This document shows, one piece after another, positions 22,746 through 25,324 of a DNA stretch of 44,281 nucleotides. A model generated the notes under the pieces. It was not told the origin of the DNA and ran no database searches. It saw nothing but the letters and a program-made list of their open reading frames with translations. The position numbers were made by a program, and so were the translations under genes. Position 1 is the stretch's first letter, and every line of letters starts with the position of its first letter. Origin of the DNA: Chloroflexota bacterium (lineage in GTDB: Bacteria; Chloroflexota; Dehalococcoidia; Lucifugimonadales; JADFKI01); NCBI GenBank assembly GCA_009840355.1, contig VXNZ01000004.1:1-44281 (forward strand), read 5' to 3'.

Positions 22746-23648
22746 ATGGCAAGCGCACAACTGCAGGAACTACTGGAGATGTTCGCGGAACGCGCGGCGA
22801 TATTCGCGGAGACGCCTCCGTCGCTGGAAGAGCGGCGCGCGGGCATCAACATGATGGGCGCAAGATTTGAGGACCTCGACGGCATCTTCATTGAAGCGAT
22901 TGATGCGGATGGCGTACCCGCAGAATGGGTGACGACAGCCGATGCAGGCAACGGCGCGATTCTCTATCTGCATGGAGGCGGCTATGTCATGGGTTCCACG
23001 AAGAGCCATCGTGGCATGGCGGCGAATCTGTCGCGTGCAAGCGGTTGCCGTGTGCTGACAATCGATTACCGGCTCGCGCCGAAGCACAAGCATCCCGCGC
23101 AGGTGGAAGACGCGCACACCGCATACCGCTGGATGCTGAAAAACGGCGCAGACCCATCGACGACCATCGTGGCGGGCGATTCCGCAGGCGGAGGTCTCAC
23201 AGTTGCCACGCTGCTCTCGGCGCGAGACGCCGGCGACCCGCTGCCTGCCGCAGGTGTGTGCATATCGCCGTGGGTTGATATGGAAGGCGCCGGCGAGTCC
23301 ATGAAGACGAAAGCAGGCGTGGACCCGACGGTCTCGGAGGCTGGTTTGCTGGACATGGCGTCGCAATTTCTGGGCGACGGCAACAGGCGCGATCCACTCG
23401 CCGCGCCACTATACGCCGACCTTACCGGACTTCCGCCGCTGCTTATTATCGTCGGCACCGCGGAAGTACTGCTCGACGATGCGGTGAGATTGCACGAGAA
23501 GGCCGAAGCAGCCGGCGTGAACAGCAGACTGGAAATCTGGGAAGACATGGTGCACATCTGGCCCTGGTTCGCGCCGTTCCTGCCCGAAGGTCAGCAAGCG
23601 ATGGAGCAGATGGGCGATTTCATCAAGGAACAGGTCGGCGCGGCGTAG
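22746..23648 (+). CDS. Alpha/beta hydrolase, hormone-sensitive-lipase family esterase
   Basis: Cytoplasmic carboxylesterase of 300 residues. The HSL-family oxyanion motif HGGGY is at 76-80 (LYLHGGGYVMG), the nucleophile motif GDSAGG has S146, the acid is probably D244 or D245 in GTAEVLLDDA, and the His is H270 in WEDMVHIWPWF. The segment VLTIDYRLAPKHKHPAQVEDA is diagnostic of this family. ATG 22746 has GGAG 6 nt upstream and a strong promoter further up. It is followed after 108 nt by the UGSC pair on the same strand, with no obvious terminator between, so a three-gene transcript is possible. The ester substrate cannot be predicted. Confidence 0.92.
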   Translation: MASAQLQELLEMFAERAAIFAETPPSLEERRAGINMMGARFEDLDGIFIEAIDADGVPAEWVTTADAGNGAILYLHGGGYVMGSTKSHRGMAANLSRASGCRVLTIDYRLAPKHKHPAQVEDAHTAYRWMLKNGADPSTTIVAGDSAGGGLTVATLLSARDAGDPLPAAGVCISPWVDMEGAGESMKTKAGVDPTVSEAGLLDMASQFLGDGNRRDPLAAPLYADLTGLPPLLIIVGTAEVLLDDAVRLHEKAEAAGVNSRLEIWEDMVHIWPWFAPFLPEGQQAMEQMGDFIKEQVGAA

Positions 23649-23756
23649 CTTTGGAGAGAAAGCATCGCTATACGACACACGGCACTAGGCATACGGCATC
23701 AGGCATTGGTCGGCGGACACCGGCGGCGAGCGACAGCCGCCGGAGAATGGCAGCAG

Positions 23757-24776
23757 ATGAGCAATCTTACATCGGCGAGAGTCCGGCACACGGACTATGA
23801 AGACGCGCAAGAGTATTACATGTCCGAAGGAATCGGTGACGGCTTGCCCGTCGTGCCGCCCACCGAGGCGAAAGTCCACGCGATGCTCGACTATGTGGGG
23901 ATGCAGCCGTCCGACGTCATAGCCGAAGAGGGCGTGCGCGGCGTCAACTTCACCGCGGAGAAGGTCGCCATCAACGCGGTTATGGCAGGATGCAAGCCCG
24001 AGTATATGCCGGTCGTCGTGGCGGCAGTGCAAGCGGTATCCGAAGGGCCGTTCAACTTCCACGCGAACAGCACATCGACCAATGGCGTGGGCGTGCTAGT
24101 CATCGTCAGCGGCGACATCGCCAAGCGCATCGGCATCAACTCCGGCACCGTTGCCATGGGACACGGATTCCGAGCGAATGCCACCATCGGACGCGCGATG
24201 GGGCTAATCAAGATTAATGCCTACGGTTCTGTGCCGCACGGAATGGACAAGAGCACTTTCGGGCATCCCGGCAAGTATTCGTTCTGCTTCGCAGAGAACG
24301 ATGATATTATACCATGGGAACCACTGCGCGTTGAGAAGGGATACGCCGACTCGGACAGCACGGTAACGGTGTTCGCCGCGAACTCGCCCGTGCAGGTGAA
24401 CACACAGAACGAAAGCGCGCCCGAAGATTTCCTAAGCATTGCGGCGGACGCTTCGATAGTGCTGGGTGAGCGGCACTCCGAATTCGTGCTCGTGCTCAGC
24501 CCAGAGCTGATGAACTATATTCGACATGCCGGCTGGTCGAAACAGCGCATCAAGGATTTCGTGCTAGAACGCGGCACGCGCACGGGACGAGAGCTGAATG
24601 AAAAGCACCGCCGCATAACGCTGTACAAGGGCGACGACCTCGACAGGCGCATCCCGGTCGTCTCAAGCACGAACGAGATAACCGTCGTTGGCGCGGGCGG
24701 CGATGCAGGTCCTTTCGCGATGCTAATCGGCGCGTGGGGTGATGTCATATCCATCACCAAGAAAATCCAAACATAA
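23757..24776 (+). CDS. Conserved protein of unknown function, upstream partner of the UGSC selenoprotein
   Basis: A 339-residue soluble protein with no signal peptide and no catalytic motif that I can name. It begins with a polar region (about 11-60) including EGIGDGLPVVPPTEAKV. A small-residue-rich block follows, MAGCKPEYMPVVVAAVQAV (76-94), with Cys79, then NSTSTNGVGVLVIVSGDIAKRIG (104-126). A Gly-rich stretch GTVAMGHGFRANATIGRAMGL (130-150) and SFCFAENDD with Cys177 come next, then an alpha/beta C-terminal part ending GAGGDAGPFAMLIGAWGD (312-329). The start ATG 23757 has GGAG 11 nt upstream; TTG 23706 is less likely. The selenoprotein gene starts 11 nt after its stop, so the two are almost certainly one operon. 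As I recall, UGSC-family genes often have such a partner. A shared redox or C-S bond reaction is an inference only. Confidence 0.75.
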   Translation: MSNLTSARVRHTDYEDAQEYYMSEGIGDGLPVVPPTEAKVHAMLDYVGMQPSDVIAEEGVRGVNFTAEKVAINAVMAGCKPEYMPVVVAAVQAVSEGPFNFHANSTSTNGVGVLVIVSGDIAKRIGINSGTVAMGHGFRANATIGRAMGLIKINAYGSVPHGMDKSTFGHPGKYSFCFAENDDIIPWEPLRVEKGYADSDSTVTVFAANSPVQVNTQNESAPEDFLSIAADASIVLGERHSEFVLVLSPELMNYIRHAGWSKQRIKDFVLERGTRTGRELNEKHRRITLYKGDDLDRRIPVVSSTNEITVVGAGGDAGPFAMLIGAWGDVISITKKIQT

Positions 24777-24787
24777 AGGTGAACGCA

Positions 24788-25324
24788 ATGGCGCAACAAA
24801 ATGAACTGGTTACACTAGACCCGCGCGGCAGCAGCACGCACGAAGACACAGGCATCGCAACCCGACCCGCAAGTTTAGATGGGTTGGTCATAGGGCTGCT
24901 GTCGAACAACAAGCCGAACTCCGAACTGCTGCTGCGCGATGTCGCGGGCTTAGTCGGCGAGCAGTATGCCATCAAGGAAATCGTAGAGGCGAACAAGGGC
25001 AGCCATCGCGTCCCTGCGCCGCCGGAGATGATTGCCGACCTTGCGGAACGGTGCGATGTGGTGATTACCGCAACCGCTGAATGAGGGAGCTGCACATCCT
25101 GCTGTATGCAGGACGCAGCATCACTCGAAAGGCTGGGTATTCCCTGCTCCGTGCTGGTAACGAAGCCGTTCAACACGCAGGCGCGCGCCATGACGAACCT
25201 GCTGGCGATGCCGGGCTACGAATACGCCGTCATAGGACATCCAATGGGTAGTCTGACCGAAGAAGAGGTTATGGCGCGAGCGCAGGAAGCCTTCCCGCAA
25301 ACGCTAAGCCAGCTAATACGCTAG
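24788..25324 (+). CDS. UGSC-family selenoprotein, in-frame TGA read as Sec
   Basis: Reading TGA 25082-25084 as selenocysteine gives a 178-residue protein ending at TAG 25322-25324. The motif is U99-G-S-C102-T-S-C105-C106, the defining U/C-G-S-C signature of what NCBI annotation calls the UGSC family (seleno)protein. Family features on both sides agree: LLSNNKPNSELLL (about 36-48), a PAPPEMI block and ERCDVVITATAE just before the Sec, then DAASLERLGIPCSVLVTKPF after it. Coding continues in the same frame for 79 codons beyond the TGA. A hairpin beginning 12 nt after the TGA makes a good SECIS. ATG 24788 has AAGGTGA 5 nt upstream; GTG 24779 is possible. The Sec plus three nearby cysteines suggests redox or selenenylsulfide chemistry. 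The biological reaction is not known. Confidence 0.9.
25082..25119 (+). promoter_or_regulatory. Sec codon and candidate bacterial SECIS in the UGSC gene
   Basis: TGA 25082-25084 is followed by a two-part hairpin. The outer stem is GCTGC (25089-25093) with GCAGC (25115-25119). The inner stem is TCCTGC (25097-25102) with GCAGGA (25108-25113). They are separated by a 3x1 internal loop and close on loop TGTAT. The apical loop starts 18 nt after the TGA and contains the GU dinucleotide usual in bacterial SECIS. Confidence 0.75.

Follow-up and report, generated by a model that had tools for sequence, protein, structure and literature searches.

A UGSC-family selenoprotein and its near-obligate partner as a candidate thioredoxin-dependent reductase with distant likeness to GrdB

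Introduction

In glycine and proline reductases, a selenocysteine (Sec) of the GrdB type is thought to attack the alpha carbon of the substrate, after which a thiol cleaves the C–Se bond and a selenenylsulfide is formed (PMC10298544). For the fluoroacetate reductase FarB/FarE, Sec attack on the C–F bond has been proposed, with a partner subunit that carries no pyruvoyl group (PMC10838667). The UGSC proteins are already known as a selenoprotein family without an assigned function, and a preliminary description of the locus studied here agrees with the literature we searched in stating that no reaction has been assigned to them. A 2008 study (PMC2398784) notes a fusion of UGSC with a protein called Unknown_1, which may be the 339-aa partner protein described below. 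Here we analyse a UGSC gene and its partner from a Chloroflexota genome, in a window that comprises a whole stretch of 44,281 nucleotides.

A UGSC gene with a Sec codon and a SECIS element

The partner and UGSC genes lie on the same strand (Table 1), separated by the 11-nt gap that had been noted earlier, and an alternative in-frame TTG start at 23706 would lengthen the partner to 356 aa. The alpha/beta hydrolase gene upstream is probably the first gene of the transcription unit and is a lineage-specific neighbour that lies outside the conserved module. The order hydrolase–partner–UGSC is kept in a close relative (locus L087), and a second copy of the pair, on contig C14 of the same genome, has no alpha/beta hydrolase gene.

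Table 1. Coordinates of the features of the UGSC locus in the window.
Feature	Position	Strand	Basis
Alpha/beta hydrolase, 300 aa (Abhydrolase_3, HSL-like)	22746..23648	+	PF07859, E 1.8e-57
Partner protein, 339 aa	23757..24776	+	ORF from ATG to stop; AlphaFold model
UGSC selenoprotein, 178 aa with Sec99	24788..25324	+	PF24696 and NF041046 matches
UGA codon (Sec99), end of beta3 / start of alpha3	25082..25084	+	
Cys102 codon	25091..25093	+	Cys in 72/73 homologues
Bacterial SECIS hairpin (mRNA)	25089..25119	+	Fold and covariation

As the preliminary description had it, the UGSC frame is interrupted by a single in-frame TGA, at residue 99, within the sequence ATAEUGSCTSCCMQD. The product matches PF24696 (E = 2e-51, 175 bits against a cut-off of 25) and NF041046 (135 bits against a cut-off of 125) on both sides of this codon. 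Across 73 UGSC sequences, residue 99 (U or C), G100, F128, H151 and P152 are invariant, and K42, K70, C102, D109 and an acidic residue at position 98 are nearly so. The UxxCxxC arrangement, a feature of GrdB and PrdB, is present in the window protein as U99, C102 and C105; residue 105 is Cys in 45 of the 73 homologues and residue 106 is Ser in 67. Conservation therefore upholds Sec99 and Cys102 from the active group proposed earlier, but not Cys105 and Cys106, and Cys102 is the probable resolving cysteine of a UxxC motif.

The alternation of U and C that was expected at residue 99 is seen in several lineages. Cys99 is found in Natrialba, Candidimonas and an Acetobacteraceae genome, as well as in plasmid-borne copies from Natrinema, Halalkalicoccus, Arthrobacter, Roseovarius and Variovorax, and at least three separate Sec/Cys changes are needed on the UGSC tree. 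Plasmids of Sporomusa termitida (L172 6320-8044) and Vibrio europaeus (L174 6404-8089) encode UGSC–partner-like fusions with Met in place of Sec/Cys (ALGDMGTS and ALADMGTS, respectively). Both fusions adjoin aconitase X and DUF126 genes and are probably a non-redox offshoot; a hydroxyproline lead taken from this context was dropped because the two fused relatives have Met at the Sec/Cys site. A plasmid of Paracoccus ferrooxidans carries a TGA-type UGSC gene (L176 6369-6938) beside a partner gene, with selB about 3 kb further on, and this UGSC gene is apparently annotated as two small hypothetical proteins.

Downstream of the TGA, the mRNA folds into a hairpin with a lower helix (25089-25093 paired with 25115-25119), an apical stem (25097-25102 with 25108-25113) and a UGUAU loop (25103-25107). 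The hairpin recognized in the preliminary description thus stands, although its apical stem starts 12 nt past the TGA rather than 18. Its minimum free energy is -20.0 kcal/mol (z = -3.4), and 1 of 200 dinucleotide shuffles was as good. Pairing in the apical stem reaches 94.9% over 56 distinct UGA genes, among which 24 double-sided changes were counted. None of 500 shuffles matched this degree of covariation, so the hairpin is not a product of chance; slid controls drop to 11–54%. Furthermore, the G and U of the loop are invariant across UGA homologues.

The genome that contains the window (3.28 Mb, 97.4% complete, 4.3% contamination) scores above the cut-offs for selA (531 bits), selB (342), selD (390) and tRNA-Sec (66). 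The selA, selD and tRNA-Sec (selC) genes lie on contig C14 and selB on C25, so all four components that were to be checked are present and a lack of Sec machinery is excluded. The selD gene (C14:129387-130307) itself has one in-frame TGA.

Judged from its sequence, we take the UGSC frame to encode a true selenoprotein. The earlier claim to this effect is borne out by the U/C alternation, the TGA shared at the same residue by about 95% of UGSC copies from many genomes, the covarying SECIS element and the Sec machinery. The last three, along with the clustering of sel genes with the pair in Alphaproteobacteria described below, make it scarcely credible that the TGA is a sequencing error or the true stop of a decaying gene, and nothing was found in favour of that reading.

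A near-obligate partner

Among 400 genomes of the phylum, UGSC was found in 41, the partner in 41 and both in 40, with UGSC alone in one genome and the partner alone in another (Fisher p = 9e-53). The roughly 95 UGSC places in these genomes have exactly one TGA in all but four cases, two of which are fragments. Co-occurrence of UGSC with selA carries little weight, as 80% of the genomes sampled from the phylum have selA; in two of the 41 UGSC genomes (G161 and G318), selA was not found at E = 1e-60.

Searching 84,980 species genomes with a partner alignment yielded at least 582 relatives, and the best 80 were used. They span bacteria and haloarchaea, with members in Chloroflexota, Pseudomonadota, Rokubacteria, Binatia, Nitrospinota, Acidobacteriota, Myxococcota, an actinobacterium, Natrialba and others. 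For these best 80 of at least 582, UGSC lies within 1.5 kb in 75 loci, downstream of the partner in 63 and upstream in 12, with one on the opposite strand. Two of the remaining five loci have UGSC within 2 kb, and two of the last three are near a contig end. The partner is a near-obligate companion of UGSC, and the association that the preliminary description had proposed to check is confirmed by both samples.

The partner matched no Pfam or NCBIfam family, and its closest named relatives are SAR202/Dehalococcoidia proteins (91% identity in SAR202 bin90). Its conserved set comprises D28, G29, P31, N73, A77-G78-C79, R139, N141, G145-R146, N154, E180 and W187, and strict invariance across 75 partners is found for D28, G29, P31, A77-G78, G145-R146, N154, E180 and G195. 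Cys79 is kept in 73 and Cys177 in 68 of the 75. The earlier idea that one of these cysteines is a counterpart of the UGSC active group holds as far as their conservation goes, but neither is required, as each is replaced in some partners; Cys79 is Ala in a fused paralogue from the same genome as the window pair.

The AlphaFold model of the partner is confident, with a mean pLDDT of 95.6. Foldseek matches to class I fumarase and cyclic amide hydrolases are weak (best E 2e-4, TM about 0.27), the best VIA-align hit has a Z of 5.3 over about 80 residues, and the fold was not assigned. A search of solved structures by sequence with UGSC, the partner and GrdB returned no significant match. The partner was also rejected as a homologue of GrdE/PrdA or GrdB on the basis that no similarity was detected, including between its profile and two GrdE proteins, and it has no PF09338 match.

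The window genome has four UGSC genes, each with a TGA. The second pair, on C14, has the partner upstream of UGSC; contig C39 carries a natural UGSC–partner fusion of 553 aa; and the UGSC gene at C46:77671-78117 has no partner nearby. A fourth partner gene (C19:74523-75545; L179 6515-7600) has no UGSC nearby, and these two orphans could pair in trans. About 4.3 kb from the C39 fusion lies a gene for a thioredoxin-reductase-like protein with an N-terminal glutaredoxin-like domain (L007 14560-15780; motifs CPDC and CATC).

Predicted fold and kinship with GrdB

The likewise confident AlphaFold model of UGSC (mean pLDDT 92.7) alternates strand and helix five times, giving a five-stranded beta/alpha arrangement with Sec after the third strand, a topology judged from the order of secondary-structure elements. 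Structural searches matched the model to flavodoxin-, receiver- and B12-binding-like domains; this arrangement is widespread and is not evidence of function. UGSC is predicted to have a flavodoxin/Rossmann-like alpha/beta fold rather than a thioredoxin-like one. Indeed, the model does not have the thioredoxin topology (beta-alpha-beta-alpha-beta-beta-alpha, in which the redox motif sits at helix 1), although the UGSC fold is called thioredoxin-like in PMC2398784 and this is implied in PMC13188914.

GrdB proteins were read through their own TGA for profile comparison, as PF07355 stops at the Sec codon. Using hhalign, UGSC profiles aligned with GrdB at E = 2e-8 (probability 95.4%) and 1e-7 when built from 26 sequences and at 7e-8 (94.6%) and 3e-7 when built from 73; a second GrdB set, the source of the 1e-7 and 3e-7 values, gave probabilities of 94.3% and 93.2%. 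Sec was aligned on Sec in every run. These E-values are pairwise, and hence shuffled, reversed and masked controls were included: 30 column-shuffled GrdB profiles scored 11–21 and a reversed one 16, compared with 58 for the real alignment, and masking the motif left a score of 35 (E = 3e-4, probability 39%). When the UGSC profile was compared with 838 proteins, GrdB filled the first 15 places (best E 1.5e-5).

The likeness is remote and lies mainly in some 80–90 residues from Sec to the C-terminus. With hits allowed up to E = 10, neither the window UGSC protein nor any of its 26 homologues gave a direct PF07355 match, and the window genome has no PF07355 protein. Taken together, the profile alignments show UGSC and the Sec domain of GrdB (PF07355) to be distantly homologous. 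Short GrdB-like genes also occur in Chloroflexota (loci L064-L080, for example L066 and L069), most with a TGA at a U-P-x-C/U-x-x-C motif; this TGA lies immediately beyond the PF07355 match, a consequence of the Pfam model stopping at the Sec codon.

Thioredoxin links and gene neighbourhood

An N-terminal thioredoxin-like domain was recognized by inspection on about 21 of the 80 partners (the best 80 of at least 582). These domains have a CxxC motif and a Val-Pro cis-proline site, align with Arthrobacter TrxA and match thioredoxin and AhpC/TSA models, some of them weakly. Genes for the thioredoxin system also lie close to the pair: in Arthrobacter sp. ERGS1:01, trxB-trxA-partner-UGSC are consecutive, Roseovarius has partner-UGSC-trxB, Variovorax has trxB near the pair, and trxB-like genes are at most 2.1 kb away in Candidimonas, Sheuella and a Dehalococcoidia genome. 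Such adjacency or fusion is found in a minority of UGSC–partner loci.

In Henriciella sp. (L123 3966-11843), the gene order is selA, selB, a thioredoxin–partner fusion, UGSC and a flavoprotein–SelD fusion, with nearly the whole selenium system packed round the pair. A Roseobacter, a second Henriciella and an uncultured alphaproteobacterium have selA and selB in roughly the same position.

Recurrent neighbours of the pair are alpha/beta hydrolases, SDRs, TctC and MFS transporters, CoA-transferases and amidohydrolases. Neighbours this diverse do not point to a particular substrate. They suggest a portable module used in different catabolic contexts, and the presence of several UGSC copies per genome would fit this.

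The UxxC motif, the fused or adjacent thioredoxin and thioredoxin reductase, and the grouping of UGSC with thioredoxin-like redox proteins in PMC13188914 and PMC2398784 would also suit a thiol/selenol defence oxidoreductase, wherein UGSC is a thioredoxin-fed peroxidase or disulfide reductase and the partner a docking or peroxide/disulfide-binding protein. We consider this unlikely, though worth keeping in mind, as the UGSC model is not thioredoxin-like, the nearest relatives found act on carbon, and peroxidases do not usually depend strictly on a large conserved partner. Moreover, hydrolases, SDRs, carboxylate transporters and CoA-transferases predominate among the neighbours, whose 25 commonest families include neither peroxiredoxin nor catalase. 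The reductant wiring is likewise compatible with a reductase that detoxifies or scavenges inorganic or metalloid substrates, such as arsenic, mercury or selenium species, and uses Sec as ligand or reductant. This alternative appears very improbable, given that metal-resistance genes are not among the recurrent neighbours and the homology is to carbon-attacking enzymes.

Discussion

The pair is best read as a thioredoxin-driven reductase whose Sec attacks a substrate carbon, because UGSC keeps the nucleophile and the UxxC motif, has a new partner, is linked to thioredoxin and has precedents in GrdB and FarB. On sequence grounds, the pair may be a two-component thioredoxin-dependent reductase in which Sec99 and Cys102 attack a C–X bond of a partner-bound substrate, a proposal to which we give an even chance. 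Its parts differ in strength: feeding by thioredoxin is well supported and quite probable, substrate binding by the partner is likely, and C–X cleavage, suggested by homology, is evenly poised. UGSC and its partner presumably form a physical complex, and we infer both the attack of Sec on carbon and the nature of the bond and substrate. The redox or reductase character assigned to the pair in the preliminary description is supported by thioredoxin fusion and clustering and by the GrdB homology. As a whole, that interpretation is supported in part; it did not include the GrdB homology, the links to thioredoxin, the Rossmann-like fold or the genome's three additional UGSC copies.

According to this reductase model, UGSC would be the nucleophile subunit, with Sec99 at the end of beta3 backed by Cys102, and with K42, K70 and H151 near the same C-terminal sheet edge, as placed from secondary structure. 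The partner would be the substrate-binding subunit, holding a small substrate with a carboxylate or carbonyl group. The selenolate would attack a carbon with a leaving group (C–N, C–S, C–O or C–halogen) to give an Se-organyl intermediate, from which a thiol would free the reduced product and leave a Sec–Cys selenenylsulfide. Thioredoxin, free or fused to the partner, would then regenerate the selenolate together with thioredoxin reductase.

More tentatively, UGSC and its partner could represent a class of Sec-dependent, thioredoxin-driven C–X reductases that are pyruvoyl-free counterparts of the glycine and proline reductases and are present in several copies per genome for different substrates. 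It is possible, with similar reserve, that such a class belongs to largely non-fermentative marine, soil and halophilic microbes and uses a new substrate-binding family. If true, the Sec-based carbon-bond reduction of Stickland fermenters would be widespread in other lineages, including haloarchaea, which use Cys in place of Sec. The analysis offers a testable function for one of the commonest unassigned selenoprotein families of water and soil bacteria, and the GrdB link, the partner and the likely thioredoxin reductant give a short list of assays.

Comparison with known systems places the window protein in the UGSC family (PF24696/NF041046) through its full-length match, UGSC motif and Sec. 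The papers on this family give no function; to it are added here a partner, GrdB homology, thioredoxin wiring and a predicted Rossmann-like fold. The near-obligate partner, the GrdB homology, the fold correction and the thioredoxin wiring were not found in the literature searched, which covered papers open without subscription. GrdB of glycine reductase and PrdB of proline reductase have the same order of features from Sec to the C-terminus (DxVI, UG(S/T)C, E..GIP and HP). Like UGSC, they have a Sec nucleophile in a two-component enzyme, and glycine reductase shares thioredoxin-fed reduction. In contrast to GrdB, UGSC lacks the N-terminal part and a PF07355 match and has a partner of a different family, and no gene for the pyruvoyl subunit GrdE/PrdA was found beside the UGSC–partner pair. 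FarB/FarE resembles the UGSC pair in that a Sec subunit of the GrdB type is joined by another that lacks a pyruvoyl group, and in its proposed direct C–X attack (PMC10838667). However, FarB and FarE are true GrdB/GrdE homologues of anaerobes, whereas the UGSC partner is not a detectable GrdE homologue. Our best reading is that the UGSC pair would work like the glycine/proline reductase family without being a member of it.
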